Shown here: one piece after another, positions 2,751-20,386 of the stretch
Numbering within the stretch: the first letter of the stretch is position 1
How the letters are laid out: each line of letters opens with the position of its first letter
DNA from: Streptomyces collinus Tu 365
Lineage (GTDB): Bacteria > Actinomycetota > Actinomycetes > Streptomycetales > Streptomycetaceae
DNA: 64,000 nt
Assembly: GCF_000444875.1 (NCBI RefSeq)
Contig: NC_021985.1
Location: 7,274,170-7,338,169, forward strand
Direction: 5' to 3'
The notes under the pieces: generated by a model
Database searches by the model: none
What the model saw: the letters and a program-made list of their open reading frames with translations, nothing else
Told to the model about the DNA's origin: nothing
Position numbers and translations under genes: made by a program

Positions 2751-2873
2751 GTGCCGCGCCGACGGCACGGGCCGCCGAGGGCGGCCGGTCTCGGTACATT
2801 GGTGCAGCAGGGATCACGACTCCCCGTCGTGCGGTCGCAGGCCCGTGCTCATGAACCTCGCAGGCGAGGCAGT

Positions 2874-5800
2874 ATGTCCGACTTGAGTGCGCCGATCGTG
2901 GCCACGTTCCTCGTGTACGTGGCCGTCATGATCGGAACAGGTGTCTGGGCCTACCGCCGTACGCACACCTTCGCCGACTTCGCCCTGGGCGGCCGCAGGC
3001 TCCCCGCGTTCGTCGCGGCCCTGTCCGCGGGGGCCAGCGACATGTCCGGCTGGCTGTTCCTCGCCTTTCCCGGAGCGGTGTACGCGGCCGGCCTCGGCGC
3101 CGGCTGGCTCGCCGTCGGCCTGGTGCTCGGGACGTACCTCAACTGGCTGTTCGTCGCGCCGAGGCTGCGTACCTACACCGAGCGCGCGGGCAACGCGGTG
3201 AGCCTGTCGGCCTACCTGGAGGAGCGGTTCGAGGACCGCACCCGGATGCTCCGCATGGTCTCGGCGGCGGTGACCCTCGTGTTCTTCACCGTGTACGTCG
3301 CCAGTGGGCTGGTGGCCGGCGGACTGCTCTTCGGGCACATCTTCGGCGCCGGCTTCCGCCTCGGGGTGGCCCTGACCGCCCTGGTGATCGTCGTCTACTC
3401 GTGCCTGGGCGGCTTCCTGGCCGTGAGCCTCACGCACGTCATGCAGGCCACGCTGATGTTCCTCGCCCTGCTCGTGCTGCCCGTCGTCGGTATCGCGACG
3501 CTCGGCGGCTTCGGTGCGCTCCGTGCCTCCCTCGACAGCAGGACGCCCGGTCTCCTGGACATGGGCGCCAAGGTCGACTTCGCGCACGGACGGTGGACGG
3601 GAGGCGGTGGGTCGCTCGGCGCCGTCGCGATCGTCTCACTGCTCTCCTGGGGCCTGGGCTATTTCGGGCAGCCGCACATCCTGGCCCGCTTCATGGGCAT
3701 CCGCAGCACCGGTGCCGTCCCCGCGGCCCGCCGTATCGAGACCGGGTGGGTGATCGTGGTGCTGGCCGGTGCCACCGCGGTCGGCCTCCTGGGCATCGCG
3801 CGGTTCGGCGCACCGCTCCATGACCCGCAGACGGTCTACATCGCACTGAGCCGGACACTGTTCAGTCCGTGGGGCGCCGGCGTGATGCTCATCGCGGTAC
3901 TCGCCGCGATCATCTCGACGGCCGACAGCCAGCTCCTCGTGTCGTCCGTCGCCCTCACGGAGGACTTCTACCACGCGTTCCTCAAGCGGCGTGCCTCGGA
4001 CCGCGCGCTGGTGTGGGTGGGGCGCGCCGCCGTCGTCACCGTGACGCTGGTGGCCTCCCTGATCGCGCTCAGGGGCGGCGGGCTGCTGGGCATCGTGGGC
4101 TACGCCTGGGCGGGCTTCGGCGCCGCCTTCGGCCCGGTCGTCCTGCTCTCGCTCTACTGGCCCCGCATGACCTGGGCGGGGGCCATGGCCGGGATCGTCT
4201 CCGGCGCGGTCACGGTGCTCCTGTGGCGTGTGGTCAGACCGTTGCACGGCCCCTTCTGGTCCGGCGTCTACGAGATGATCCCGGGGGTCCTGATCGCGAC
4301 GCTCGCGGCACTGGTCTTCGGCAGGTTCGCGGGCCGGCCGCCGAAACGGGCCTTCTGGCGGATGCCGGGCGGCGGGGTGAGCCAGCTGATGCTCACTCCG
4401 TTCCTCAGCCACGCGCCGGTCGGCATCGCCGTCCTCGACACGGATCTGCGGTACGTCTGGGTGAACGAGCCGCTGAACCGCCAGATCCCGCTGAAGCGGC
4501 GGCTGGGCCGGCGGATGTCGGAGGTGCTGCCGCAGGCCGAGGCCGACGCCTTCGAGGAGCAGATGCGCGCGGTGCTGCGGACCGGCGCGCCGGTGATGGA
4601 CTTCGAGTACCGCGGTGCCGGCTACACGGTGCACGACCGGAGCCGCGCGATCTCCGCCTCCTTCTTCGCGATGAAGGACCGCCACGACCGGAGCGTCGGC
4701 GTCTGGTACATGATCATCGACGTCACCGAGCGATGGCGGGCGCAGGAACGCCTGGCCCTGCTCAACGACGCCGCCGCGCGCATCGGCAGCACCCTGGACG
4801 TGACCCGGACCGCGCAGGAACTGGCCGACGACGCGGTGCCGGCCGTCGCGGACTTCGTCGCCGTCGACCTGCTGGACTCGGTCATGAGAGGCGAGGAGCC
4901 GGCCCCGGGACCGGTCGGCATGGCGCCGGTCCTGCGCCGTGCGGCACAGCGGTCGGTCCGTGCGGGCTGCCCCGAGGCGTCACTGGCCGTGGGGGAGACG
5001 GTCCGGCGCGCGCCCGAGACGCCCGTGACCCGCTGCCTGCTCGAGAGCAGGACCCTGGTCGAACGGGTCCTGGACCCCGCCACCAGTCCGTGGGTGACCG
5101 TGGACGAGACACTGGGCGCCTCGTTCCTGGACCACGACTTCCGCTCGGTCATGGTGGTCCCCGTGCGGGCGCGCGGGGTCACCATGGGGGTGGCGACGTT
5201 CGCCCGGTCCCGGAGGCTGGGCCCCTTCGAGGACGACGACGTCCGCCTCGCCGAGGAGCTCGTCTCGCGTGCGGCGGTGTGCGTCGACAACGCACGCCGT
5301 TTCACCCGTGAGCGCACCGCGGCCCGCTCCATGCAGCGCTACCTGCTGCCGCAGGACCTGACGGGAGGCTCCGCCCTCGACGTGGCGTCGTGGTACCTGC
5401 CGGCGGACGCCCCGAGCGGTGTGGGCGGCGACTGGTTCGACGTGATCCCGCTCTCCGGAGCACGTGTGGCCCTGGTCGTCGGGGACGTCGCCGGGCACGG
5501 CATCAACGCGGCGGCGACCATGGGGCGCCTGCGCGTCGCGGTGCGTACGCTCGCCAACCTGGACCTGTCTCCGGACGAACTGCTGGCTCATCTGGACGAC
5601 CTGGTCATCGGCCTCATGGGGGCGCACGACATCGACGCGCCGTCGGCGGCCGAGGGCGCGGCGACCGGCACCGCGTTCCTCGGCGCCACCTGCCTGTACG
5701 CCGTCTACGACCCGGTCAGCAGGCGGTGCACCATGGCCCGGGCCGGTCACCTGCCCCCGATGATCGTCGCTCCCGACGGCACCGCCGACATCCTGGACCT

Positions 5801-6455
5801 GCCTGCCGGACCACCGCTCGGCCTCGGCTACCTCCCCTTCGAGTCGATCGAGACGGAGCTGGCGGACGGCAGCCTCATCGCCCTCTACACCGACGGCCTC
5901 ATCGAGTCCGTCGACCGGGACGTCGACGTCGGGCTCACCCGGCTGGGCGATGCCCTGGCGGCGCCCCTGCCCACCCTGGCGGAGACCGGCCGGCGAGTGA
6001 TCGACAGCCTGCTGACGGGCCCGCCCGCCGACGACGCGGCCCTGCTCCTCGCCCGTACCCGTGTCCTGGCCCCGGACCGCGTCGCCTCCTGGGACCTGCC
6101 CAGTGATCCGGCCGCCGTGGCGCACGCCCGCGACCTGGCCACTCGCAAGCTGACGGAATGGGGCGTCCCCGAGCTGACGTTCACCACGGAGCTCATCGTC
6201 AGCGAACTGGTGACCAACGCGATCCGCCATGCCACCGGGCCGGTCTGCCTGCGCCTGATCCGGGACCGCGGTCTGATCTGCGAAGTCTCCGACGCCAGCA
6301 GCACCTCGCCCCGCCTGCGTCACGCGCGGACCACGGACGAGGGGGGACGGGGCCTGCTGATCGTCGCCCAGCTGGCCCGCCGGTGGGGCACCCGGTACAC
6401 GAAGACCGGCAAGATCATCTGGACGGAGCAGGTCATCGCGGCCGACGCGGCCTGA
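2874..6455 (+). CDS. PutP-type sodium/solute symporter fused to PAS-GAF-PP2C-HATPase signalling module
   Basis: This 1193-residue protein joins a complete transporter to a complete sigma-regulatory module. Residues 1 to about 485 are a sodium/solute symporter closest to the proline carrier PutP. They keep the hallmark sequences LSAGASDMSGWLFL, GYFGQPHILARFM and ISTADSQLLVSSVALTEDFY, the last of which covers the sodium-site region of PutP. Then come PAS (about 510-620), GAF (about 623-815), PP2C (about 820-1060; GVGGDWFDVIPL, VVGDVAGHG, DDAALLL) and an RsbW-like HATPase (about 1070-1192; ELIVSELVTNAIRH, GGRGLLIV). The ATG at 2874 is chosen because the symporter begins directly after it; the upstream in-frame stretch is arginine-rich and not credible. 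By inference, substrate binding or flux could set phosphatase or kinase output. The substrate is unknown. Confidence 0.9.
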   Translation: MSDLSAPIVATFLVYVAVMIGTGVWAYRRTHTFADFALGGRRLPAFVAALSAGASDMSGWLFLAFPGAVYAAGLGAGWLAVGLVLGTYLNWLFVAPRLRTYTERAGNAVSLSAYLEERFEDRTRMLRMVSAAVTLVFFTVYVASGLVAGGLLFGHIFGAGFRLGVALTALVIVVYSCLGGFLAVSLTHVMQATLMFLALLVLPVVGIATLGGFGALRASLDSRTPGLLDMGAKVDFAHGRWTGGGGSLGAVAIVSLLSWGLGYFGQPHILARFMGIRSTGAVPAARRIETGWVIVVLAGATAVGLLGIARFGAPLHDPQTVYIALSRTLFSPWGAGVMLIAVLAAIISTADSQLLVSSVALTEDFYHAFLKRRASDRALVWVGRAAVVTVTLVASLIALRGGGLLGIVGYAWAGFGAAFGPVVLLSLYWPRMTWAGAMAGIVSGAVTVLLWRVVRPLHGPFWSGVYEMIPGVLIATLAALVFGRFAGRPPKRAFWRMPGGGVSQLMLTPFLSHAPVGIAVLDTDLRYVWVNEPLNRQIPLKRRLGRRMSEVLPQAEADAFEEQMRAVLRTGAPVMDFEYRGAGYTVHDRSRAISASFFAMKDRHDRSVGVWYMIIDVTERWRAQERLALLNDAAARIGSTLDVTRTAQELADDAVPAVADFVAVDLLDSVMRGEEPAPGPVGMAPVLRRAAQRSVRAGCPEASLAVGETVRRAPETPVTRCLLESRTLVERVLDPATSPWVTVDETLGASFLDHDFRSVMVVPVRARGVTMGVATFARSRRLGPFEDDDVRLAEELVSRAAVCVDNARRFTRERTAARSMQRYLLPQDLTGGSALDVASWYLPADAPSGVGGDWFDVIPLSGARVALVVGDVAGHGINAAATMGRLRVAVRTLANLDLSPDELLAHLDDLVIGLMGAHDIDAPSAAEGAATGTAFLGATCLYAVYDPVSRRCTMARAGHLPPMIVAPDGTADILDLPAGPPLGLGYLPFESIETELADGSLIALYTDGLIESVDRDVDVGLTRLGDALAAPLPTLAETGRRVIDSLLTGPPADDAALLLARTRVLAPDRVASWDLPSDPAAVAHARDLATRKLTEWGVPELTFTTELIVSELVTNAIRHATGPVCLRLIRDRGLICEVSDASSTSPRLRHARTTDEGGRGLLIVAQLARRWGTRYTKTGKIIWTEQVIAADAA

Positions 6456-6540: not shown

Positions 6541-7740
6541 CTACTTCGCCTTGCGGTTCGCGGAGGAGACGGGCTCCTTCCCCAGCCTCTCGATCGTCTC
6601 TTCCATCTCGCTCACCCTGCGGCGCAGTCGCACCAGTTCCTCGCGCTCGGCCGTGGTCAGAGCGCCCGCCGGTCCCTGGCCTCGCTCCACCGCCAGCTCC
6701 TGCGCGATCGCCGCCGCGAACGCGTCCACGTCGGCTTCGGTGGTGTCGAAGGAGGTCATCCAGCGGACCTCGCCGGCCTGCTCGTCCCAGGTGTAGAAGC
6801 GGAAACGCTTCTGGAGACGCTCGGTGACGGCCGGCGGCAGGACGGCGAAGATCTGGTTGGCCTGCACCGGGCGGCGGATCTCCAGGCCCGGCAGGTGGCG
6901 CACCGCCTCGTACAGCCGCTGGGTCATCGCGTTCGAGCCGGCCGCCGAGCGCAGCCAGAGGTCGCCGCCCAGCAGCGCTTCGAACTGCACCGACATGAAA
7001 CGCATCTTGGAGCCCAGCTGCATGCTCGTCTTGCGCAGGTGAGCCATGCCGCGCACCGCGTCCTCGTTGAGCACGATCACCGCCTCGCCAAAGAGCAGCC
7101 CGTTCTTGGTGCCGCCGAGCGAGAGCACGTCCACGCCGACGTCGGTGGTCATCTCACGCAGGGACACGCCGAGGGTGGCGGCGGCGTTGGCGAGCCGGGC
7201 GCCGTCCAGGTAGACGAGCATGCCGCGGTCGTGCGCGTGGTCGCAGATCGCACGGATCTCGTCCGGGGTGTAACAGGTGCCGAGCTCGGTGGACTGGGCG
7301 ATCGAGACGACCCTGGGCCGGGCCCGGTGCTCGTCCTCGAAGCCCCATGCCTGACGGTCGATCAGCTCAGGGGTGAGCTTGCCGTCCCACGCGGGCACCG
7401 TCAGCAGTTTGATCCCGGCGACCTTCTCGGGGGCCCCGCCCTCGTCGACGTTGATGTGGGCCGACTCGGCGCAGATCACGGCGTCCCATCGGTCGAGCAT
7501 GGTCTGCAGCGCGACCACGTTCGCGCCGGTGCCGTTGAAGACCGGGTAGGTGTGCGCGGTGGGGCCGAAGTGGCCGCGCACCACTTCCTGGAGGCGCTCG
7601 GTGTAGACGTCGGCGCCGTAGCTGACCTGGTGGCCGCCGTTGGCCAGGGCGATCGCCGCGAGGACCTCGGGGTGCGCCCCGGCGTAGTTGTCGCTGGCGA
7701 AGCCGCGCTCGTCCGGGTCGTGTCGTCGCTGTATGGTCAT
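6541..7740 (-). CDS. threonine aldolase-like PLP enzyme (beta-eliminating lyase fold)
   Basis: This 399-residue protein belongs to the fold-type I PLP family that includes low-specificity L-threonine aldolases, which cleave or form beta-hydroxy-alpha-amino acids using glycine and an aldehyde. The PLP lysine is Lys212 in LSLGGTKNG, and LDGAR (Asp179, Arg182) supplies the cofactor-binding aspartate. The N-terminus reads FASDNYAGAHPEVL, and residues about 355-390 are charged and look coiled-coil, longer than in housekeeping aldolases. Its start overlaps the stop of the MFS gene by an ATGA, so it is the last gene of the eight-gene operon. In that setting it may process glycine or an aldehyde in the pathway. 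That role is inference; it could also be an ordinary aldolase. Confidence 0.85.
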   Translation of the reverse strand: MTIQRRHDPDERGFASDNYAGAHPEVLAAIALANGGHQVSYGADVYTERLQEVVRGHFGPTAHTYPVFNGTGANVVALQTMLDRWDAVICAESAHINVDEGGAPEKVAGIKLLTVPAWDGKLTPELIDRQAWGFEDEHRARPRVVSIAQSTELGTCYTPDEIRAICDHAHDRGMLVYLDGARLANAAATLGVSLREMTTDVGVDVLSLGGTKNGLLFGEAVIVLNEDAVRGMAHLRKTSMQLGSKMRFMSVQFEALLGGDLWLRSAAGSNAMTQRLYEAVRHLPGLEIRRPVQANQIFAVLPPAVTERLQKRFRFYTWDEQAGEVRWMTSFDTTEADVDAFAAAIAQELAVERGQGPAGALTTAEREELVRLRRRVSEMEETIERLGKEPVSSANRKAK

Positions 7741-9074
7741 GGTGCTGGCCTACTCGTCTCGGTCGTACGGGTGTGACACATGTGGTCCGGACGGGCGCCG
7801 GCCGGCGCCGGCTCCGTCCGCGCGCGGGCCTTCTCCAGGCCGCGCACCAACGGTGGTGCGGCGAGCCCGAGCAGGGCGAAGACCGCCGCGAGGACCAGCC
7901 AGCCGGTCGCCGCCGTGCCGACGACCAGGGAGGTCATCAGCCACGGCCCGGCGAACTGCTGGAGCCCGCGCCCCAGGGAGAACACCGCCTGGTACTCACC
8001 CTGCCGGCCCGCGGGGGCGAGCCCGAAGGACAGGCCCCAGCTCGCCGACGCCTGGTACAGCTCGCCGATGACGAGCACCAGCGCACCAGCCACCAGGGCC
8101 GCGCTGTCCAGGAGCACACCGTGCCCCGCGCTCACCGCGAAGACCAGGCAGGACGCCCCCAGCGCCCACCCCGCCCAGCGCAGCATACGTGCCGCTCCGG
8201 CCGGAGTACGCGCGCCCCCGCTGACCGCGACCTGGAACAGCAGCACCAGGACGGTGTCCAGGATCAGCAGCCCCGACACCAGCAGCGCGGGCGCGTCGGT
8301 GCAGGTGACGATCCACAGCGGCAGACCGACCGTCAGCAGCGGCTGGTACAGCTCCAGAGCACCGCACACCAGCGAGACCGCCACATAGCGCACGTCCCGC
8401 AGCGCGGCGCTGCGCAGCACCCCGCCCGGCGCCTCGGCGGCGGCACGGGGGCCGGCGCCCGCGGGCAGCCGCATCCCGAGCAGCACGGCGACGGAGACCA
8501 ACTGGAGGGCGGCGTTGGCGAGGACCGTGGCGTACAGGGCGGTCGCGGTGCCCGCCGCGATGGCGGCTCCGGCCAGCGCGGCGCCGCCGAGGAAGCCCAG
8601 GTTGAACAGGCTGCGCATCTGCGCGCTCACCCTGACCCGCGCCGCCTCGCCCACCAGCGCGTCGGTGAGTGATGCCTGCAGCGCGCCCGCCGAGGTCTCC
8701 AGGACCGCGAGGGCGCACGCGACCGCGAGGAATGCGGCGAAGCCGTCCACCAGGCAGTAGGCGGTGAAGCCGGCGGCCGCGAGCAGGAAGTTGCCGGCGA
8801 GCACCCGGCCCGCGCCGAGCCGGTCCGCGAGCCGGCCGATGGGCACGGTGCAGAGCAGACCGCAGAGCCCGGCGACCGACAGGGCGAGGCCCACTCGGTG
8901 GGCGGGGATGCCGAGGGTCCGGGTGAAGAACACGGCGCTGGAGGTGAGGAACACCCCGAGCCCCAGGGACTGGATGAGCGTGAGGACGCCGAGTCTGCGC
9001 GCGTTCCCGGCGGCCGGCAGGGACTCCCGGAACCAGGCGCGCAGCACGTCGGCGTGTCCGCGGGCGTCAGCCAT
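7737..9074 (-). CDS. MFS transporter, probable exporter of the pathway product
   Basis: This 445-residue protein has about twelve hydrophobic segments and a typical MFS loop with PIGRLADRLGAGRVLAG between segments two and three. Members of this family act as drug or small-molecule/H+ antiporters in the cytoplasmic membrane. The ATG at 9074 overlaps the end of the ATP-grasp gene by 8 bases, and its stop overlaps the next start by ATGA, so it is co-translated with the biosynthetic genes. The context suggests export of, or self-protection against, the operon's product; the substrate cannot be read from sequence. Confidence 0.85.
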   Translation of the reverse strand: MADARGHADVLRAWFRESLPAAGNARRLGVLTLIQSLGLGVFLTSSAVFFTRTLGIPAHRVGLALSVAGLCGLLCTVPIGRLADRLGAGRVLAGNFLLAAAGFTAYCLVDGFAAFLAVACALAVLETSAGALQASLTDALVGEAARVRVSAQMRSLFNLGFLGGAALAGAAIAAGTATALYATVLANAALQLVSVAVLLGMRLPAGAGPRAAAEAPGGVLRSAALRDVRYVAVSLVCGALELYQPLLTVGLPLWIVTCTDAPALLVSGLLILDTVLVLLFQVAVSGGARTPAGAARMLRWAGWALGASCLVFAVSAGHGVLLDSAALVAGALVLVIGELYQASASWGLSFGLAPAGRQGEYQAVFSLGRGLQQFAGPWLMTSLVVGTAATGWLVLAAVFALLGLAAPPLVRGLEKARARTEPAPAGARPDHMCHTRTTETSRPAP

Positions 9075-10314
9075 GCGGCTCAGCCCCCTCGGCCCGCTCG
9101 GTCCGCAGCCCGTACACCTCCATCGCGGTGTGCACGGCGGCGCGCACCGCGGCGGCGCTCCGCCCCCGGAACCGGAAGATCCCGCAGCCCTCGTCGTAAC
9201 TGCCGGGCCCGGTCAGGATCCGGCCGACGGCGGGCAGTTCCTCGTGGTAGACCTCGGGGACGGCCGACAGGAGCGAGGTACGCGCGACGACCCGGCCGGG
9301 CAGCTCGCGCGGAACGGGGTAGATGAGCCAGCCGCCGGCCCGGGGCCCGACCGGTTCGGACGGCTGCCACAGCGGGGGCAGGTCCAGCGCCGCCCGGAAC
9401 GCCTCGGCGAACAGGTCGATGCCGTAGAGGTCGACGTGCAGGAACGGCACCTGAGCGCCGCCCGGCCGCAGCCCGACCTCCAGGAACACCAGCTCGCCCC
9501 CCGGCCGCCGGATCGCCTCCAGGTGGAACGCGCCGTCGCGCAGCCCGAGCGCCCGCAGACAGTGGTCGGCGAACGTGGTGAGCTCGTCGCGCTCGGGGCC
9601 GGGGTCGAGCAGGACCGAGCCGAGCGGGCGGCCGTGCGCGTAGTCCAGACAGGTGTGGACGTACTGGGAAGCGGTGACGAAGTGGAGGCGGCCGGAGCGG
9701 CGGACGCCGTCGACGTGGAAGATGTCCCCGTCGACGTACTCCTCGCACTCGTACGCCTCGGGGTCGACGCCCTCGAGCGCGTCGCGCAGTTCGTCGGTGC
9801 TGTGGACGACCGTGACTCCCTGGGAGCCCGCCGCCGCGCGCGGCTTGAGGACCAGGGGCGGACCGCCGAGGGCGTCGACGACCGCTTCCGCCGAGGGCGC
9901 GTCGTCGAGCCGCCGGAACCGGGGAACCCGCAGTCCGGCCGCGCCCACCGCGCTCTTCATGGCCGGCTTGTCCTTGAACCGCTCGACGAGGTCGACACCG
10001 TAGCCGCCGGGGACGCCGAGCGCGGCCGAGAGCCGGGCGGCGGTCAGGACGTCGTACTCGGACTGGCCGAAGACCGCCTCGGGCGTACCGTGCCGGTCCG
10101 CGATCTCCCGTACGAGGGGCAGCAGGTCGTCGTGGGCCAGGCTGTCGCGCACATGGACCTCGGTCGCCCCGTCCCGGTCGAGCGCGGGCAGCCCGCCGGG
10201 CGTGGTGAGGTACACCGTCCGGCATGGATGGCCGTCGAGGAAGCGGTGGTATTCGCCGAACTCGTCGCCGGAGCGGTTGAGGACGACGTACAGCGGGGTG
10301 GTCCGGTCGGTCAC
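9067..10314 (-). CDS. ATP-grasp carboxylate-amine ligase (first of two)
   Basis: This 415-residue enzyme has the ATP-grasp layout: an N-terminal Rossmann-like half, then PLVLKPRAAAGSQGVTVV (nucleotide-binding lysine and glycine-rich loop), YECEEYVDGDIFHVDG, and a metal-binding C-terminal LVFLEVGLRPGGAQVP. Such enzymes activate a carboxylate as acyl phosphate and join it to an amine, forming peptide-like bonds without carrier proteins. The GTG at 10314 is chosen because it overlaps the stop of the MetRS-like gene as GTGA; longer in-frame sequence upstream is a shadow of that gene. It is only distantly similar to the other ATP-grasp enzyme of the operon, so two different condensations are likely. 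Substrates are unknown. Confidence 0.85.
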   Translation of the reverse strand: MTDRTTPLYVVLNRSGDEFGEYHRFLDGHPCRTVYLTTPGGLPALDRDGATEVHVRDSLAHDDLLPLVREIADRHGTPEAVFGQSEYDVLTAARLSAALGVPGGYGVDLVERFKDKPAMKSAVGAAGLRVPRFRRLDDAPSAEAVVDALGGPPLVLKPRAAAGSQGVTVVHSTDELRDALEGVDPEAYECEEYVDGDIFHVDGVRRSGRLHFVTASQYVHTCLDYAHGRPLGSVLLDPGPERDELTTFADHCLRALGLRDGAFHLEAIRRPGGELVFLEVGLRPGGAQVPFLHVDLYGIDLFAEAFRAALDLPPLWQPSEPVGPRAGGWLIYPVPRELPGRVVARTSLLSAVPEVYHEELPAVGRILTGPGSYDEGCGIFRFRGRSAAAVRAAVHTAMEVYGLRTERAEGAEPHG

Positions 10315-11942
10315 GTGTCCGCTCCCGGTCGCAGGGTGCCGGGCAGGCAGGCGTCCAGATCGGCGGCGCTCACCCGGCCGAAGCCGGGCGCGGGCCGGTC
10401 CCGCAGGGCCGGGGTCCTGGCGAGGAAGGCCCTCGCGCGAGGCTCTCCGGTGCCCCCGAGGCGCTGCCAGAGGAGCTCGGCGAGGTCCGGCATCACCGGG
10501 AACGCCAGCAGGGACAAGCCCTTGAGCCACCAGTAGGCGCCGTCCTCGGCCGCGTGGGCGACCGCGTCGTCGGCACACCAGCGGTCGAGTGCCGCGACCG
10601 CGCGCCGGGTCGACACACGGGCGCCGTCGAGCGCCGCGGACTGCTCGGCGAGCAGGGATTCCAGGAGGTCGGCGACGGCCGGGGCGGGCGCCTGCGGTGG
10701 CCCGTCCGGCAGCCGGCTCCAGGCGGCGTCGATCCGCTTGCCGAGGCCGTCGGCGAGCGTGGTGTTCGCGGTCCGGAGGAAGTCGGCCGTCTCGAAGCTC
10801 GCCGCCCCGGACTCCAGATCGGCCCCGGCCAGGTGGTACCGGACGGTGTCCACGCCGATGGCGGGCGAGGCGGCGATGTCCGCCGCCCAGATGGCGTGCT
10901 GGGCGCTGGTGGAGAACTTCCGCCCGGCCAGCCGGTAGAAGTTGTTGATCAGGCACCGGTCGTACGGCTTCATGGCGCCGTGCAGCAGGCTGGTGCCGAC
11001 GATCGAGACCAGGGTGGGGATCACGTTGTCGATCCCCAGGGTGGTGATGGTGGTGACCTGGGAGTCCGGGTCGAAGGCGTTCACGCCGGTACCGGACAGC
11101 CGGCCGTGGACGGCGCCGGCGAGGCGGGCGAACATGAAGATCCCGGCGTACGGGAAGAGGGCGCGCGGGACGTCCGGCTCGGATCCGGGCAGCGGAACTC
11201 CCCACGTCTGCGGGGCGCTCAGCCGTACGGTCAGGCCGTCGCGCTCCAGGAAGCGCGCCACGGTCGCCCGGTAGCGGTCGGCGACGCCCAGGTCCGCGAG
11301 GGTGGTGTCCAGGAGGTCGCGGTCGGGCAGCCGCAGGAAGAGGCTGGAGATCTCGCGCCAGGTCAGCGGCCCCTCGTCGAGCAGGGGGCGCGGCTCGACG
11401 ACCGACTCGGGCAGGAAGTGCGCGCTGCACTCCTCGCAGAAGTAACTCGCGATGCCCGCACCGCACTCGGGGCAGCTGCCCTGGAGCCAGCCGCCCACCA
11501 CCCAGCGGTCCGACGCCGCGCAGTGGGGCACGCGCTCGGTACGCGTCAGCACCGCGCCCCGGGCCGTCAGCCGCTCGATCGAGTCGGCCACCTCCTGCTC
11601 GAACTGCTCCCGCCAGGGCTGCTGGTCGGGGACGATGAAAGCGTCGACGCCGATGCGCATCGCGGCCAGGTCGTCCTGGATGCGCCGACCGTAGCGGGCG
11701 GCGACCTCGCCGGGCGTGGAGTCCTCGGCGTGCGCCTTGAGCGTCACGTACGACTCGTACACATCGCTGCCGGTGATCACCAACGGCAGGTCGCCCCGGA
11801 CCCGCAGATGCCGCGCGATCATGTCCGACCACAGGAAGGGGCCGCCGATGTGGCCGAGGTGCAGGGGGCCGTTGGGCGTGGCCTCGGGCGGCACCAGGAG
11901 GTAGTGCCGGGGGGTGTGGGTCTCCCCGGTCAGCAGGCTCAT
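10311..11942 (-). CDS. MetRS-like amino-acid activating enzyme, probable hydrazine synthetase catalytic half
   Basis: This 543-residue protein is a class I methionyl-tRNA synthetase paralogue. It keeps the HIGH-type motif as HLGH (residues 28-31, in PNGPLHLGHIGG) and a zinc knuckle with paired cysteines (CPECGAG...CEECSAH). The KMSKS loop is altered to KFSTS (lysine near residue 342). Known hydrazine synthetases (for example Spb40 of s56-p1, recalled from literature) are fusions of a cupin and a MetRS-like domain. The MetRS part activates an amino acid and esterifies it onto an N-hydroxylated lysine, and the cupin drives N-N bond formation. Here the cupin is a separate gene two positions upstream. 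The ATG at 11942 is chosen by its ATGA overlap with the flavoenzyme gene. A resistance-type MetRS is the main alternative. Confidence 0.85.
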   Translation of the reverse strand: MSLLTGETHTPRHYLLVPPEATPNGPLHLGHIGGPFLWSDMIARHLRVRGDLPLVITGSDVYESYVTLKAHAEDSTPGEVAARYGRRIQDDLAAMRIGVDAFIVPDQQPWREQFEQEVADSIERLTARGAVLTRTERVPHCAASDRWVVGGWLQGSCPECGAGIASYFCEECSAHFLPESVVEPRPLLDEGPLTWREISSLFLRLPDRDLLDTTLADLGVADRYRATVARFLERDGLTVRLSAPQTWGVPLPGSEPDVPRALFPYAGIFMFARLAGAVHGRLSGTGVNAFDPDSQVTTITTLGIDNVIPTLVSIVGTSLLHGAMKPYDRCLINNFYRLAGRKFSTSAQHAIWAADIAASPAIGVDTVRYHLAGADLESGAASFETADFLRTANTTLADGLGKRIDAAWSRLPDGPPQAPAPAVADLLESLLAEQSAALDGARVSTRRAVAALDRWCADDAVAHAAEDGAYWWLKGLSLLAFPVMPDLAELLWQRLGGTGEPRARAFLARTPALRDRPAPGFGRVSAADLDACLPGTLRPGADT

Positions 11943-13042
11943 GTTCGCGTTCTCCTGTCGAGCAGGTCCAGTGCGTCCTCGGCCATGGCCGGGGCGAGTC
12001 GGTAGCCGGATCCGGAACCGCCGATGGCCATGACGACGTCGTCGTCGCCGGCCGTGTCCACGATCGGCACATGGCCGGCGGTGAAGCAGTCGCTGAAGAC
12101 CCGGCCGCCGAGCAGGTGCGGCAGGAAGCCCGGTACGTGCCGGGCGAGCAGGGCCCGGGCGACTTCCCGGTCGCGGGGGTCGATGGCGAGTGGTTCGTCG
12201 GGGCCGCGGTCCCAGTCGGGCGAGGTGATGCTGAGGATCCAGTGGCCGCCGCCGTGGTGGGGCAGCAGGAAGGCGTCGGCGTCCTCCAGGACCAGTGCCG
12301 GGGCGCCCGGCGGGGGCGCCGTCATGAGGTGGAACGCCACCACCTTCTTCACCCGGGCCCCGCGCGCGCGGGCCGCCGCCGCCACCGGGCCGTCGAGGAC
12401 CCAGGGGCCGGGCGCGAGGACCGCCTTGGCGGCGGTGAGCCGGCTGCCGTCGGCGGCGACCAGCTCGACGCACCCGCCCGTACGCCGTACCCGGGTCACC
12501 CGGAATCCCTCCAGGAGGGTGTTGGCCGGGCGGCCGAGGACCTCGTCGAGCAGCCGGTCGGTGAGCCACTGCGGCCGGCCCATGGTCATGGGGCCGCTCG
12601 CCAGCAGGACTTGGTCGCCGCCGTGGGCGAACCCGGGGAACGTCCGCTCGAGCAGGGATCGCTCCTCCCCGCTGACCGGGCGCGTACGGCCGCCGTCGGC
12701 CATGGTCGCGTCGAGCGCGGCCGTGTTCTCGCGCGCCACCAGCCAGCGGACGTCGACCGGCGCGCGTCCGGCGTCGCCGAGTCCGGCGGCGAGCTCGTCG
12801 AAGAGCGCGGTGCTGCGGGCGGCCAGCGCACGCTGGGCCGGGTTGTGCCCCGTGGGCGTGTCGAATCCGGCCGACAGACGGGTCGCGCCCGTCCCCCGTC
12901 CGGCGTGCGTGATCACGGCGACGCGCCGGCCCGGGTCCCGGCGCACGGCGTAGTACGCGGTGAGGGCGCCGACCACGCCCGCACCGACGACGGCGAGGTC
13001 GTAGTGGGGCGCCTCACCGGTCCCGGTGATGCGCTCACTCAT
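11939..13042 (-). CDS. FAD-dependent DAO-family oxidoreductase
   Basis: This 367-residue protein belongs to the D-amino acid/glycine oxidase (DAO) superfamily. It starts with the dinucleotide motif DLAVVGAGVVGALTAYYAV and has a late GGSGSGYRLAPAMAEDAL segment typical of the family's C-terminal FAD contact. DAO-type enzymes oxidise secondary or primary amines. In hydrazine pathways, homologues oxidatively cleave the lysine-hydrazino-acid conjugate to release a free hydrazino acid. The gene overlaps the cupin gene by 8 bases and the MetRS-like gene by 4, fixing the ATG at 13042. The assigned step is inferred from this gene order. Confidence 0.85.
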   Translation of the reverse strand: MSERITGTGEAPHYDLAVVGAGVVGALTAYYAVRRDPGRRVAVITHAGRGTGATRLSAGFDTPTGHNPAQRALAARSTALFDELAAGLGDAGRAPVDVRWLVARENTAALDATMADGGRTRPVSGEERSLLERTFPGFAHGGDQVLLASGPMTMGRPQWLTDRLLDEVLGRPANTLLEGFRVTRVRRTGGCVELVAADGSRLTAAKAVLAPGPWVLDGPVAAAARARGARVKKVVAFHLMTAPPPGAPALVLEDADAFLLPHHGGGHWILSITSPDWDRGPDEPLAIDPRDREVARALLARHVPGFLPHLLGGRVFSDCFTAGHVPIVDTAGDDDVVMAIGGSGSGYRLAPAMAEDALDLLDRRTRT

Positions 13043-13412
13043 GGGGCGCCGACCACCAGAAGGAGTAGACGACCAGTTCCTCGCCCTGGTCGGCGAAGAT
13101 CTCGTGGACGGCCTGTGAGGCGAAGCCCACCAGGGAGCCGGGCCCGACGAGCGACCGCTCGCCGTCCACCTCCAGGGTGCCGGAGCCGGCGTGGACCACC
13201 CAGATCTCCTGGACCGCGTGCTGGTCCGGCGAGCTGCTCCCGCCCGCCGGCACGGTGAAGCGGGCCGCCTCGAACGGCACGTGGGGGAAGACCGAACGGG
13301 CGAAGTCCGCCTCGGCGACGGTCACTCCGTCGGGTTCCTCCTCGGTCGGGCCGAAGGGAACCAGGGCGCCGACCGCCTCCGCCTGGAACTGCGCCACCTG
13401 ACGCGCGGTCAT
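13035..13412 (-). CDS. stand-alone cupin, probable N-N bond-forming partner of the MetRS-like enzyme
   Basis: This 125-residue single-domain cupin carries a metal-site signature: DQHAVQEIWVVHAGSG supplies His and Glu, and SQAVHEIFADQG supplies the second His. The barrel is complete and ends in YSFWWSAPHE. In characterised hydrazine synthetases a zinc cupin of this type is fused to the MetRS-like domain; here it is encoded alone, two genes from the MetRS-like gene. Its ATG overlaps the hydroxylase stop (ATGA). The C-terminus overlaps the DAO gene by 8 bases. Taken alone it could be any small metal cupin; the neighbourhood is what suggests the function. Confidence 0.82.
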   Translation of the reverse strand: MTARQVAQFQAEAVGALVPFGPTEEEPDGVTVAEADFARSVFPHVPFEAARFTVPAGGSSSPDQHAVQEIWVVHAGSGTLEVDGERSLVGPGSLVGFASQAVHEIFADQGEELVVYSFWWSAPHE

Positions 13413-14638
13413 ACCGGATACCTCGTCTCACCGAGCATGCTGTTGAGGATGACCGCGCTGCGCCACGCGAGCAGGCTGAGATTGGGATCGGCGACGCCCC
13501 AGGCGTGCCGGGCGCCGTTCTGGAGGTAGATCCGGTTCTCCGCGGGCCCGTCCCAGGCGACCGAGAAGTCGTCGCCCACGACGAGCATCCCGCCGTCCCG
13601 CCGCAGTCGCGCGTCCAGCGGCGCCATGAAGTCCGGCAGCGCGTAGGCGTATCCGGTGCTCAGGATCACGAGGTCGGCCGCGAGCACGGCGGGTGCCTCC
13701 GGGCCGGAGGACTCGACGACGAGCTTGAAGTCGCCGGGGCCGCCCTCGACCGCGGTGACCGCGCAGTCCGCCATGAAGCGCAGCCGGCCGGGGTTGTCCT
13801 CGATGAACTCGTCGCGGTAGCTCAACCGGTAGATGTCCTGCAGGACTTGGAGGTCGATGCCGTCGCTGGTGTACTTCTGCCGCTCCAGGAGCCGGGACTT
13901 GTGGTCGGCGGGCAGCGCGTGGAAGCGGCGTACGTAGTCGGGCGTGTAGAGGTCGTTGGCGAAGGGCGAGTCGTCCATCGGCAGGAACGACGAGCGCCGG
14001 CTGACCCAGGTGATGCTCTCGGCAGCCGCGCCGGCCGCCAGGTGGCGCACGATCTCCGCGCCGCTCTGGCCGCCGCCGACCACGACGACTCGCCGTCCGG
14101 TCACCTCGGGGGACCGCAGCAGGAACTCCCCGGAGTGGAAGACGGTGGGGCCGATGAAGGGGCGGAACGGCTCGGGGACGGACGGCGTGAGCCCGGTGCC
14201 CAGCACGAGGTGACGTGCCGTCACCTCCCGTTCGGCGGTGCGGAGGTGGAAGGCTCCGTCGTGGAAGTCCACGCTGTGGACGTCCGCGCCGAACGTCAGG
14301 CTCGGCAGCCGCCCGGCGACCCACTGGAGGTACTGGTTGAACTCGGCGCGCAGGACGGCCGGGAAGTCGGCGGCCAGGAACCGGTAGAGCCGGCCCTCAC
14401 TCGCCAGGAACGACAGGAACGAGAAGGGGCTGGTCGGATCGACCAGCGTCACCAAATCCTTGAGCAGCGAGACCTGGAGGGTGGCCTCGGGCAGCAGCAG
14501 CCCGGGGTGCCAGGAGAAGCTCTCACGGCGCTCCAGGTGGGCGCCGCGCAGTCCTTCGACCGGATGCGCGAGCGCGGCGAGGCTCATGTTCGCGGGGCCG
14601 ATGCCGACGGCCGCGTAGTCGAGTATGTGTGCGTTCAT
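13409..14638 (-). CDS. lysine/ornithine N-monooxygenase (IucD/SidA family)
   Basis: This 409-residue flavoenzyme is predicted to N-hydroxylate the side-chain amine of lysine or ornithine using FAD, NADPH and oxygen. It has the FAD motif GIGPANMSLAALA, the family sequence LPEATLQVSLLKDLVTLVDP, an NADPH-binding VVVVGGGQSGAEIVRHL and the late substrate-side motif LSTGYAYALPDF. Siderophore pathways use this family, but no siderophore synthetase, acyltransferase or siderophore uptake gene is near. Its fellow operon genes (cupin, MetRS-like, DAO-like) instead match hydrazine formation, where the hydroxylated lysine is the first intermediate. The ATG at 14638 has GGGGG about 8 bases upstream and follows the previous stop by 16 bases. 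Confidence 0.88.
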   Translation of the reverse strand: MNAHILDYAAVGIGPANMSLAALAHPVEGLRGAHLERRESFSWHPGLLLPEATLQVSLLKDLVTLVDPTSPFSFLSFLASEGRLYRFLAADFPAVLRAEFNQYLQWVAGRLPSLTFGADVHSVDFHDGAFHLRTAEREVTARHLVLGTGLTPSVPEPFRPFIGPTVFHSGEFLLRSPEVTGRRVVVVGGGQSGAEIVRHLAAGAAAESITWVSRRSSFLPMDDSPFANDLYTPDYVRRFHALPADHKSRLLERQKYTSDGIDLQVLQDIYRLSYRDEFIEDNPGRLRFMADCAVTAVEGGPGDFKLVVESSGPEAPAVLAADLVILSTGYAYALPDFMAPLDARLRRDGGMLVVGDDFSVAWDGPAENRIYLQNGARHAWGVADPNLSLLAWRSAVILNSMLGETRYPV

Positions 14639-14654
14639 GGTGGCAACCCCCGGG

Positions 14655-15917
14655 TCAGGCCGGGACGACGAGGTCGCCGAGCGCCTGCCAGCGGTCCAGG
14701 GCGTCCTGCGGCGAGTCGGCGGTGAACAGGGCGTGGCCGAGGCGCGAGCGGCAGTCCTCGACGCCGGGGATGGTCTCGCCCGGCGCGAAGTAGACGGCGG
14801 TCTCGGTGACTTCCGGCAGTGCCTCCAGTTCCGGCCACCCGGTGAGCTCCCGGTACGAGGAGCGGCCCGCGGCGGAGAAGAAGCGGATGCCGGCACTCCT
14901 GGCCTGCGGCCGTGCGAAGGCGCCCGCCGCCTCCAGGCCGACGCCGAGCGCGGTGGCGACGGCCACCCTGGGCAGGCTGACGCCGGTCACGAGCCGCAGC
15001 AGCTCCACGATCCGGTCGCCCGGCAGCCGGGCGCCGATCTCGATGAGCACCGGACCGTCGGCGCTCAGGCGTAGTTCGCAGTGGAAGGGGCCGCTGGTGA
15101 TGCCGACGGCGCGGACGACGTCGCCGACGTACGCCTCGATGCCGCGCAGGGTGGCGTCGTCGACGAGCGCCGGGGTGAGGTGGCCGAGCTCCACGAAGTC
15201 GGGCTCGGGGCCGAGCAGGGTGCGGCTGAGGGCGACGACGGTGACCTCGCCGCTCTCCAGGACGTAGCCGTCGGCGCTGAACTCGGGGCCCTGGACGTAC
15301 TCTTCGACGAGTACCCGGTGCTCGTGCAGCTTGCCCATGTCGGGCTCCGGATCGGTCACGAGCCGCTGGAACGCGGCGGTGAGCTGGTCGAGGTCGTCGG
15401 CGCGGCTGACGTGGATGCTGCCGGAACAGGCGACCGGCTTCAGCACGCAGGGGAAGCCGACCCGTTCGGCCGCGGCGCGCAGTTCGGCGTCGGTGGTCGC
15501 CTGGGCGAAGCGCGGGGTGCGCAAGCCGGCCTCCGCCACGGCGGCCCGCATGACGCTCTTGTCCCGGACCCTGTCGACGGTCGCCACGGGCAGGCCGGGC
15601 AGGTCCAGTGCCGCGGCGACGCGCGCGGTCGCCGTCACGTAGATGTCGGAGCCCGGCAGCACCGCCTCGAACGGCTCGGCTCGGTGCAGTTCGAGCACGG
15701 CCGCTTCGAGGTCGGCCTGGTCGTTGGTCTCCACCGTCAGCACCGAGTCGGCCGCCGCGCGCACGGCGTCGGAGAGCCGGCGGTCGCCGGAGTCGGCGGT
15801 GGCGACGACGACCCGCAGTCCCATCTCGGCCGCGACACCGATCAGGGTGGCGCCTCCGGAGGAGGCGGGTTCGACCACCAGGACGCGGGCAGGGCGAAGT
15901 ACATCTGTGTGCGGCAA
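14655..15917 (-). CDS. ATP-grasp carboxylate-amine ligase (second), first gene of the operon
   Basis: This 420-residue enzyme shows the ATP-grasp core: PCVLKPVACSGSIHVS (ATP loop with lysine), VLVEEYVQGPEFSADG, and LIEIGARLPGDRIVELL, which carries the metal-binding glutamate. Its C-terminal part (IRFFSAAGR to the end) resembles the LAL/BacD-type dipeptide ligases. It would condense an amino acid or hydrazino acid with another carboxylate. The start is a TTG at 15917-15915 with GGGGGA seven bases upstream; no better in-frame ATG or GTG exists nearby. It leads the operon, and a palindromic candidate operator lies about 40 bases upstream. Confidence 0.85.
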   Translation of the reverse strand: MPHTDVLRPARVLVVEPASSGGATLIGVAAEMGLRVVVATADSGDRRLSDAVRAAADSVLTVETNDQADLEAAVLELHRAEPFEAVLPGSDIYVTATARVAAALDLPGLPVATVDRVRDKSVMRAAVAEAGLRTPRFAQATTDAELRAAAERVGFPCVLKPVACSGSIHVSRADDLDQLTAAFQRLVTDPEPDMGKLHEHRVLVEEYVQGPEFSADGYVLESGEVTVVALSRTLLGPEPDFVELGHLTPALVDDATLRGIEAYVGDVVRAVGITSGPFHCELRLSADGPVLIEIGARLPGDRIVELLRLVTGVSLPRVAVATALGVGLEAAGAFARPQARSAGIRFFSAAGRSSYRELTGWPELEALPEVTETAVYFAPGETIPGVEDCRSRLGHALFTADSPQDALDRWQALGDLVVPA

Positions 15918-16330
15918 AGCGAGATCCCCCGTGCAGAGCTGTATGGACCGGACGCGCGATCACGGTCCTGATCGTGATCTTTCTATCCGGGCGCCTGGGA
16001 CCCGGTCAATGGATCACCGCAAAATCCTCTGCGAGAGCCAACCTCGGCCGCACGATTTCCGGAACAGGGCCGCCATGGACGCCTGTTCGGCCCCGGAGGT
16101 GAAGATCATCCGCATTGCGCCATATGTCGAAGCGTGTGCTACGGCAGCATGTCGACCTCATGACACCACCAGGCAAGACCTGGTGCCGCGGCGGAGTACG
16201 GACCAGGCTGACGTGTACATCTCCAGTCCGCCGTTCCGTCCCCGCAGAAAGCTTCACCGCGCATGCATGCGACCTGTCTCCCCGGTGCCCGAGAAGCACA
16301 CACCTCGTGTGGGGCGAGGAGGTGCCGCGC
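15918..16330. other. divergent intergenic region between the pathway operon and the ABC transporter
   Basis: About 410 bases without a credible gene separate the two divergent operons. They hold the palindrome at 15958-15979 and a tight hairpin at 16167-16185 (CACCAGG, loop CAAGA, CCTGGTG). AGGAGG at 16317-16322 is the ribosome binding site of the permease. The reading frame open through 16115-16330 is continuous with the permease but has poor composition and no support as coding. Confidence 0.6.
15958..15979. promoter_or_regulatory. 22-bp palindrome, candidate operator of the pathway operon
   Basis: GATCACG and CGTGATC form a perfect inverted repeat with an 8-base spacer. It lies 41 bases upstream of the TTG start of the first pathway gene, where an operator or promoter element would be expected. 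No regulator gene for it is encoded next to the operon inside the window. Binding protein unknown. Confidence 0.45.
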
Positions 16331-17314
16331 GTGGCGCGCTATGTGATGCGCAAGGCGGCCGGCTGGCTTCTGATGATCGTGGTCGCGACGAACGCCACCT
16401 ATTTCCTGGCCAGTTGGTTCCTCGACCCGCGGTCGAACTTCAAGGAGCTGCGGCCCGTCCGCACCGAGGCGCAGATCGACCGGGCCCTCGCGCCGTACAA
16501 CCTGGATCCCACGGTGCCGTTGGCGCACCGCTGGTGGGACTGGCTGACCTCGGTGATCCTGCGCTTCGACTGGGGAAAGTCCCCCACCGGGGTCTCCGTC
16601 AACGGCGAAGTCGGCTACCGGGCGCTGATCAGCGCGGAGTTGGTCCTCGTCGCGACCGTGCTGTCCGTCGTGATCGGTGTCGCGCTCGGCGTCCACACCG
16701 CCGCACGGCAGTACGGCTGGGCCGACCGGGTCTCGCAGGCCGTGTCCATCGTGGTGTTCAACGTCCCCACCTCCGTCGCCGCCCTCGCCGTGGTCTTCGG
16801 CGCCATCTGGCTGAACCAGCACGCCGGGCTGCACTTCCTCTACGTCGCGGGGGAGGACTCGCCGGGCGTCGAAGGACTGCTCCCCACGATCGGTGACCGT
16901 CTCCTGCACCTGATCCTGCCGACTCTGACGCTCACGCTGATGGGTTACGTCGGCTATCACCTGACGCAGCGTTCGCTGTTGCTCGACACGCTGCACGCCG
17001 ACTTCGTGCGGACCGCCCGGGCCACCGGGCTCACCCGCACCCAGGCCATCCGCAGGCACGCTCTGAGGGCCGCGCTCATCCCGACGGCTGCTTCCGTGGC
17101 GTTCAGTGTCCCGGCCGTCTTCACCGGTGCCGTCATCACGGAGACGATCTTCGGCTGGAACGGCATGGGCCGCTACTTCATCCAGACCATCGGCAAGAAC
17201 GACGTACACGGCGTGGTCGCGACGGCCGCCTTCGCCGCGGCCCTGACCGCGATCGGTGCGATCCTCGCGGACATCGCCACGGTCTTCCTCGACCCGAGAG
17301 TGCGGGTGAGCTGA
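16331..17314 (+). CDS. ABC transporter permease, DppB/OppB type
   Basis: This 327-residue protein is the first permease of a peptide/nickel-type ABC importer. It has a hydrophobic N-terminal helix (MRKAAGWLLMIVVATNATYF), a long periplasmic-side loop and the permease coupling region around DFVRTARATGLTRTQAIRRH, which docks on the ATPase. The GTG at 16331 is chosen because AGGAGG lies 8 bases upstream and the family N-terminus begins here; the longer open frame upstream looks non-coding. One base separates its stop from the next start, so the genes form an operon. Substrate unknown. Confidence 0.88.
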   Translation: MARYVMRKAAGWLLMIVVATNATYFLASWFLDPRSNFKELRPVRTEAQIDRALAPYNLDPTVPLAHRWWDWLTSVILRFDWGKSPTGVSVNGEVGYRALISAELVLVATVLSVVIGVALGVHTAARQYGWADRVSQAVSIVVFNVPTSVAALAVVFGAIWLNQHAGLHFLYVAGEDSPGVEGLLPTIGDRLLHLILPTLTLTLMGYVGYHLTQRSLLLDTLHADFVRTARATGLTRTQAIRRHALRAALIPTAASVAFSVPAVFTGAVITETIFGWNGMGRYFIQTIGKNDVHGVVATAAFAAALTAIGAILADIATVFLDPRVRVS

Positions 17315-17315
17315 C

Positions 17316-18254
17316 GTGACCACCGACGCGCCCTCCCGGCCGGCCGAGGAACAGGTGTCACAAGCGGCAACCATCGTGCGAAAGCACGCGAACCCCGGCC
17401 TCGGCCGGCTCTACCTGCGGCGGTTCCTGCGCAACCGCATCGCCGTCGTCGGAGTGGTGATCTTCGTGCTGCTGGTGCTGTTCGGAGCCTTCGGCGGCCG
17501 GTTCACCTCCTACGCGTACACCGACGCCGACTTCACCGCGCTCACCCAGCCTCCGAGCGGCCGGCACTGGTTCGGCACCAACCAGGGCGGCAACGACATC
17601 TATGCCTGCGCCGTCCACGGGCTCCAGCGCTCCCTGATGATCGCCGTGAGCGTGTCGGTACTGACGATCGTCCTGGCCGCGATCATCGGCTCGGGCGCCG
17701 CGTACTTCGGCGGCCGGGTCGAGCGGGCGACCCTCGCCGTCATCCACTTCCTGCTGATCGTCCCCTCGTTCCTCATCCTCGCCCTGGTCTCCCACCGGCT
17801 GGCCGGCGACTGGCGCGTCCTCATCGCCGTGCTGACCGTGTTCGGCTGGATGTCCACCGCGCGGGTGATCTGGTCCGTCTCGACCTCACTGCGCGAACGG
17901 GACTACGTGAAGGCGGCCGAGTTCATGGGAGTCGGTCCGCTGCGAATCGTCCTGCGCCACATCATCCCCAACCTCGGGTCCCTGCTGATCGTCAACCTGA
18001 CGCTCGGAGTCGTGGCGACCGTGCTCAGCGAAACCGCCCTTTCGTTCCTCGGGTTCGGTGTCCAGACCCCGGACGTCTCCCTCGGCACGATGCTCGCGGA
18101 CGGCGCGAACACCGTCACGAGCGCCCCCTGGCTCTTCGCCTTCCCCGCCGGACTGGTCGTCCTGCTCACCGTGTCGATGACCTTCATCGGCGACGGCCTG
18201 CGCGACGCCCTCGACCCCACGTCGGTGACCGGCTCGGCGGGAGGCCGGCGATGA
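17316..18254 (+). CDS. ABC transporter permease, DppC/OppC type
   Basis: This 312-residue second permease has a cytoplasmic N-terminal tail, a membrane helix (FLRNRIAVVGVVIFVLLVLF), the family's GTNQGGNDIYACAVHG segment after the first helix, and the coupling motif RDYVKAAEFMGVGPLRIVLR. The GTG start at 17316 lies one base after the previous stop. The 3' end overlaps the ATPase gene by ATGA. It would form the membrane channel together with the preceding protein. Confidence 0.88.
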   Translation: MTTDAPSRPAEEQVSQAATIVRKHANPGLGRLYLRRFLRNRIAVVGVVIFVLLVLFGAFGGRFTSYAYTDADFTALTQPPSGRHWFGTNQGGNDIYACAVHGLQRSLMIAVSVSVLTIVLAAIIGSGAAYFGGRVERATLAVIHFLLIVPSFLILALVSHRLAGDWRVLIAVLTVFGWMSTARVIWSVSTSLRERDYVKAAEFMGVGPLRIVLRHIIPNLGSLLIVNLTLGVVATVLSETALSFLGFGVQTPDVSLGTMLADGANTVTSAPWLFAFPAGLVVLLTVSMTFIGDGLRDALDPTSVTGSAGGRR

Positions 18255-20335: not shown

Positions 20336-20386
20336 ACACGGTCCGTCGATGCTGTCCCCTCACCGACCCCTAAGGAACCCTCCACC

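Follow-up and report, generated by a model that had tools for sequence, protein, structure and literature searches.

Nitrogen-nitrogen (N-N) bonds are rare in biology, and they yield reactive, drug-like molecules such as azaserine, triacsin and pyrazomycin. Among the described gene sets that make such bonds, the azaserine enzymes azsL-azsM-azsN (PMC10445470), the triacsin enzymes Tri26-28 and the s56-p1 enzymes Spb38-40 can be grouped as hydrazinoacetate-type systems. In these, the cupin is fused to a methionyl-tRNA synthetase (MetRS)-like protein (with a carrier domain added in azs), the amino-acid pocket is of the glycine type, and assembly involves non-ribosomal peptide synthetases (NRPS) or carriers; an ATP-grasp gene and an MFS gene are further members of the azs cluster. 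The actinopyridazinone set Apy9-11 (PMC11705231), which we compared by description only, again has a hydroxylase, a MetRS/cupin hydrazine synthetase and a DAO-family enzyme, but its substrates are 2,4-diaminobutyrate (DABA) and alanine, and its C-N cleavage is the opposite one. In the RHS1 system of Rhodococcus jostii RHA1 (Zhao et al. 2021, PMC8664883), the MetRS-like protein and the zinc cupin are separate and are accompanied by a lysine N-hydroxylase, along with glutamate as substrate and a saccharopine-dehydrogenase-type gene. Hydrazine synthetases of alanine, serine and tyrosine types are also known. We analysed a 64,000-nucleotide stretch of Streptomyces collinus Tu 365 (the window; NC_021985.1, positions 7,274,170 to 7,338,169) and, within it, an eight-gene operon on the minus strand (6541-15917) that very probably makes a small amino-acid-derived compound with an N-N bond.

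We observed that the eight genes are densely packed as one operon, transcribed in the order ATP-grasp ligase 1, N-hydroxylase, cupin, DAO-like flavoenzyme, MetRS-like protein, ATP-grasp ligase 2, MFS transporter and threonine aldolase. A sequence-only reading had proposed an eight-gene operon here, with overlaps of 4-8 bases in the N-N gene set. Its open reading frames and coordinates were confirmed, as were its protein families (using Pfam and NCBIfam), and six of the seven junctions are indeed 4- or 8-base overlaps, only the ligase 1/hydroxylase junction being gapped (16 bases). The hydroxylase starts at an ATG at 14638 and the MetRS-like protein at an ATG at 11942. The fraction of G and C at third codon positions was 0.90-0.94 in the operon reading frames measured, a coding-type composition.

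The identical set of eight genes, in identical order and behind the same promoter, was found in seven further Streptomyces records, whose hosts include S. paradoxus, S. indiaensis, S. massasporeus and S. tibetensis. Such conservation of gene order is far beyond chance. The flanks are unrelated in all eight genomes, save for one paralogous patch, and no additional gene is conserved beside the eight. The ratio of nonsynonymous to synonymous substitution (dN/dS) lay between 0.12 and 0.47 for each of the genes, indicating purifying selection. In comparisons of G000 with G173 and G229, dS was 0.09-0.16 in the two cassette genes measured; the core aldolase gave 0.42-0.50 in the same pairs, so that horizontal transfer is indicated. 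Together with the unrelated flanks, these low values mark the eight genes as a transferred cassette and, to judge from these comparisons, as a single transferable block in at least eight Streptomyces species. The MetRS-like gene (E 1e-60 or better) occurs in 9 of 393 Streptomyces genomes drawn, three of them with the cassette. No empty insertion site could be demonstrated, the neighbouring ABC transporter gene being without a close homologue in near relatives, and in a plasmid collection the only MetRS-like relatives found were distant ones, from Burkholderia and Robbsia. With its bounds set by eight genomes, this is a very small and complete-looking N-N cluster and, having a single promoter, it should be expressible as a unit in a test host.

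The cupin gives a gapless alignment with RHS1 (5UQP; E in the table), a proven N-N-forming cupin whose four key residues have been described (PMC8664883). All four zinc or catalytic residues (D63, H65, E69 and H103) stand at the same numbers in the two proteins, and the cupin has the D/H-x-H-x3-E...H pattern, including the invariant catalytic glutamate. The hydroxylase lay outside the diamine siderophore clade (DesB, FbsI and DfoA; support 100/99) and outside the clade of MbtG and KtzI (100/100), and its neighbours in the tree were the hydroxylases of other hydrazine clusters. Two marks of amino-acid hydroxylases that are missing from the diamine enzymes are kept in it: the lysine within QVSxLKDLVT, and the DDSPFAN segment. 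We take these two, and the third position discussed below, to be substrate-binding, as in SidA and PvdA. Lysine is our best guess for its substrate, ornithine or DABA being possible. The genome has a second hydroxylase gene (L080, 6767-9528), which overlaps its upstream gene and groups with the hydroxylase of the Robbsia hydrazine cluster (87/79); no MetRS or cupin gene was recognised near it.

We further examined the MetRS-like protein. Its closest solved relative in a phmmer search was 9L8V (E in the table), named as the C-terminal domain of PyrN with a glutamyl-adenylate analogue. The AlphaFold model (predicted local distance difference test score 87) gave a VIA-align Z of 33.8 to 9L8V and 30.9 to the next structure, a true MetRS; Foldseek alone placed the true MetRS of P. 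abyssi (1RQG) first and 9L8V second. In the tree, 14 hydrazine-type proteins stood apart from true MetRS (100/100), with long branches meeting at that split, and a separate housekeeping MetRS, 27% identical, is encoded elsewhere in the genome. The ATP-site motifs are kept (HLGH for HIGH, and KFSTS with the lysine of KMSKS), while the methionine pocket is lost, all of A12, L13, Y15, W253, A256, P257, Y260, F300 and H301 being changed. Of the anticodon-binding residues, N391 was changed in both alignments and the status of R395 and W461 depended on the alignment, so we gave up arguing from these residues that the enzyme does not serve tRNA.

The pocket was compared at 12 positions (E. coli MetRS numbering). 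The window protein reads P E T D G M F L D N P T, the azs-like proteins T P T D W M S F D N Y H, PyrN S F T V A L A F D N L R, and true MetRS A L Y D W A P Y D I/N F H. Between the window protein and the azs-like proteins, 8 of the 12 positions differ, and the arginine of PyrN at 301 has no counterpart in the window protein. The MetRS-like protein of a sister cluster (L019) is 48% identical to it overall, yet shares 11 of the 12 pocket residues. From this we infer that the two enzymes use a common amino acid, probably neither the glycine of azaserine nor the glutamate of PyrN. Since the pocket resembles neither type, glycine, and with it hydrazinoacetate, should not be assumed. As a distinct sequence type, it can help to widen the specificity code for hydrazine synthetases.

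For the DAO-like flavoenzyme, the 393 genomes were searched at E 1e-14 or better, with neighbours taken within 1.5 kb flanks. Besides the three cassette copies there were 26 loci, and a hydrazine-type hydroxylase and/or a MetRS-cupin homologue adjoined the DAO gene in every one. Two of these loci (L110 and L111) closely match the published azaserine gene order in the part seen (PMC10445470).

Both ligases have an ATP-grasp_4 domain in Pfam, and ligase 1 has the C-terminal domain of L-amino acid ligases as well. Ligase 1 matches such enzymes clearly (BL00235, PDB 3VOT, 5.6e-32; BacD, 1e-17), and the match of ligase 2 is weaker (4WD3, 1.6e-13). As with BL00235 and BacD, an MFS gene lies nearby; the cassette differs from them in that its ligases are paired and stand beside N-N genes. 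Homologues of both ligases also occur as pairs at five Streptomyces loci (L055-L059) with no hydrazine genes, several of them near a transporter gene, apparently a widespread two-ligase module. The operon can therefore be seen as a combination of this module with one for hydrazine formation. ATP-grasp genes adjoin hydrazine synthetases also in L019, in L020 and on a Burkholderia arboris plasmid.

Together, these comparisons point to a mobile cassette for a hydrazine-containing amino-acid conjugate made with neither NRPS nor carrier protein, to which (for N-N formation, C-N cleavage and ligation) we assign a probability of about 0.8. The hydroxylase would N-hydroxylate a diamino acid, most likely giving N6-hydroxylysine; the MetRS-like enzyme would adenylate a second amino acid and esterify the N-hydroxyl with it; the zinc cupin would rearrange this ester to give the N-N bond; and the DAO-like enzyme would cleave a C-N bond oxidatively to free a hydrazino acid. 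The basis for these four steps is that the enzymes have characterised homologues whose key residues they keep. Beyond them we infer that the two ligases couple the hydrazino acid to one or two amino acids, that the aldolase either forms or splits a beta-hydroxy amino acid, unless it serves as a duplicate for protection, and that the MFS protein exports the product. What appears new is that a known N-N enzyme trio stands together with two ligases of the peptide-bond type and a duplicated housekeeping aldolase.

The sequence-only reading had also proposed that the operon builds a hydrazine, and the cupin, MetRS-like, DAO and hydroxylase references agree with this at the level of sequence and structure. 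Two outcomes that it had named as fatal, a grouping of the hydroxylase with siderophore enzymes and of the MetRS-like protein with resistance-type MetRS, did not occur; the latter protein groups with PyrN and the azaserine-type hydrazine synthetases. Its proposal that lysine and a second amino acid are converted into a hydrazino acid agrees with the homology of the enzyme set; glycine should not be presumed for the second amino acid. It had matched no known product, and likewise we found no described cluster or named product with this gene set in the literature, of which mostly the open-access part was covered.

Several points weigh against our reading. The chemistry of the operon is deduced from sequence and structure comparison. 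The third substrate-side position of the hydroxylase (TNYSVVD in MbtG and KtzI) seems changed, which affects one of three conserved positions. The acyl substrate cannot be assigned, the pocket being unlike both reference types. The bond cut by the DAO-like enzyme cannot be predicted from its family, as Apy10 and Spb39, both of that family, cut different bonds (PMC11705231). Lastly, the aldolase may serve either biosynthesis or protection.

The aldolase keeps the PLP (pyridoxal phosphate) lysine motif GGTKNG and the DGAR motif of fold-type-I L-threonine aldolases, and is 72% identical to the core paralogue in the same genome. A core copy was present in all 16 Streptomyces genomes tested (68-74% identical), and a second in all three of those with the cassette. 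As an extra copy of a core gene, it could be either biosynthetic or protective. The biosynthetic role is somewhat the better supported candidate, although still tentative: glycine and an aldehyde, perhaps one released by the DAO-like enzyme, would give a beta-hydroxy-alpha-amino acid for the ligases to attach. The sister clusters L018 and L019, which have no second aldolase copy, carry instead 2-oxoglutarate oxygenases that could beta-functionalise an amino acid; however, no common product is known, the correlation comes from three clusters only, and the copy in one relative (L017) is without its C-terminal tail. Self-resistance is a fainter prospect. Hydrazines trap PLP, so a hydrazino product could inhibit PLP enzymes, the cassette copy being a less sensitive L-threonine aldolase. 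Apart from the presence of the second copy in the three carriers, this is favoured by the fixed differences shared by the cassette aldolases, nine in number, including H177Y beside DGAR (a conserved histidine replaced by tyrosine) and C329T; these aldolases form one clade (100/100). Against it, threonine aldolase is no obvious essential target, the two sister clusters manage with one copy, and the retained catalytic lysine and DGAR motif also fit a biosynthetic role. The duplicated gene thus poses a directly testable question of self-resistance versus biosynthesis.

A pathway through hydrazinoacetate, like those of s56-p1, triacsin and azaserine, in which lysine and glycine are joined and the DAO-like enzyme frees hydrazinoacetic acid for ligation, is doubtful. 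The hydroxylase, DAO-like and MetRS/cupin enzymes are homologous to the azs-like genes of L110 and L111 (to L110, 44% identity for the hydroxylase, 37% for the DAO-like enzyme and 32% for the MetRS-like protein). However, the pockets differ as described, the cassette MetRS-like proteins form a separate clade (100/100), cupin and MetRS-like protein are standalone, as in RHA1, and the GNAT, acyl-CoA dehydrogenase, AMP ligase and carrier-protein genes are absent from the eight-gene cassette. It is similarly unlikely, if more far-reaching, that the cassettes make new carrier-free hydrazino-peptide antimetabolites from an amino acid outside the hydrazinoacetate and PyrN pathways, the aldolase acting on the hydrazino acid or being a resistant PLP enzyme copy. 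A siderophore operon, with a hydroxylase for hydroxamate formation and a resistance or housekeeping MetRS, is highly improbable: the hydroxylase matches siderophore enzymes at the superfamily level, but its tree position and motifs, the lost methionine pocket, the missing acyltransferase and IucA/C-type synthetase, and the genome's own DesB-like gene elsewhere (L026) all argue against it.

Of the two sister clusters, L018 (3480-14264, Streptomyces sp. A 4/2) is a variant cassette with its own hydroxylase, a WelO5-like 2-oxoglutarate-type oxygenase, an AlaX-type editing protein (2.5e-42) and a LysE exporter. L019 (1380-13547) has three ATP-grasp ligases, a DUF4350-TauD fusion whose oxygenase resembles GntD, VioC and clavaminate synthase, and a weak AlaX-like match (2.5e-7). 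Each cluster, the eight-gene operon included, would have its own route to a beta-functionalised amino acid, and the AlaX-type genes may protect against mischarged tRNA; a search of the literature found nothing on resistance genes that encode alanyl-tRNA-editing proteins. Among more distant loci, the Burkholderia arboris plasmid (L030, 9327-16234) has hydroxylase, ATP-grasp, MetRS-like, CoA-transferase-like, cupin and DAO genes. A Robbsia andropogonis plasmid (L031, 7577-13832) has a DABA transaminase-type gene, a second aminotransferase-family gene, and diamine-clade hydroxylase, MetRS-like and cupin genes, near insertion sequence elements and a XopQ effector gene; its product may be a diamine-derived hydrazine. 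In two Streptomyces genomes (L021 and L022), MetRS-like and hydroxylase genes lie beside large WD40-repeat proteins.

The features of the operon are collected in the table.

Table. Genes and upstream elements of the eight-gene operon (window positions).
Feature	Position	Strand	Evidence
ATP-grasp ligase 1 (L-amino acid ligase type, LAL_C2 domain), TTG start	14655..15917	-	Pfam ATP-grasp_4 3e-27, LAL_C2 4e-10
Flavin-dependent amino-acid N-hydroxylase	13409..14638	-	Pfam Lys_Orn_oxgnase 6e-104
Standalone zinc cupin, predicted N-N bond-forming	13035..13412	-	RHS1 5UQP E 6.5e-16
DAO-like flavoenzyme, predicted oxidative C-N cleavage of hydrazine intermediate	11939..13042	-	Pfam DAO 2e-28
Standalone MetRS-like aminoacyl-activating enzyme, predicted hydrazine synthetase part	10311..11942	-	9L8V PyrN domain E 1e-37
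ATP-grasp ligase 2, GTG start	9067..10314	-	Pfam ATP-grasp_4 1.7e-7; PDB 4WD3 1.6e-13
MFS transporter, presumed exporter	7737..9074	-	Pfam MFS_1 1.2e-11
L-threonine-aldolase-type PLP enzyme, second copy of core Streptomyces gene	6541..7740	-	PDB 5VYE 2.5e-78
Conserved operon promoter: TTGACC (16009-16004), 18-base spacer, TAGAAA (15985-15980)	15980..16009	-	aligned upstream regions
Operator-like inverted repeat GATCACG...CGTGATC just 3' of -10 box	15958..15979	-	perfect in window

In the alignment of upstream regions, the promoter block was kept in all eight records and the DNA farther upstream was unrelated; the TTG start of ligase 1, with a GGGGGA site upstream, was conserved in the same set. 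As the right arm of the inverted repeat is variable in the relatives, its function as an operator is only suggested, and no regulator gene was found in the eight-gene cassette. Directly upstream of the operon, and divergent from it, are genes for an oligopeptide ABC importer, including one for a binding protein (16115-22069). We rejected this transporter as a cluster member, since it adjoins the cassette in no other genome. At 2751-6455 lies an unusual sensor-transporter of 1234 amino acids, in which a sodium:solute symporter is fused to PAS, GAF, SpoIIE-type phosphatase and HATPase domains; it adjoins another PAS-SpoIIE protein (249-2750).

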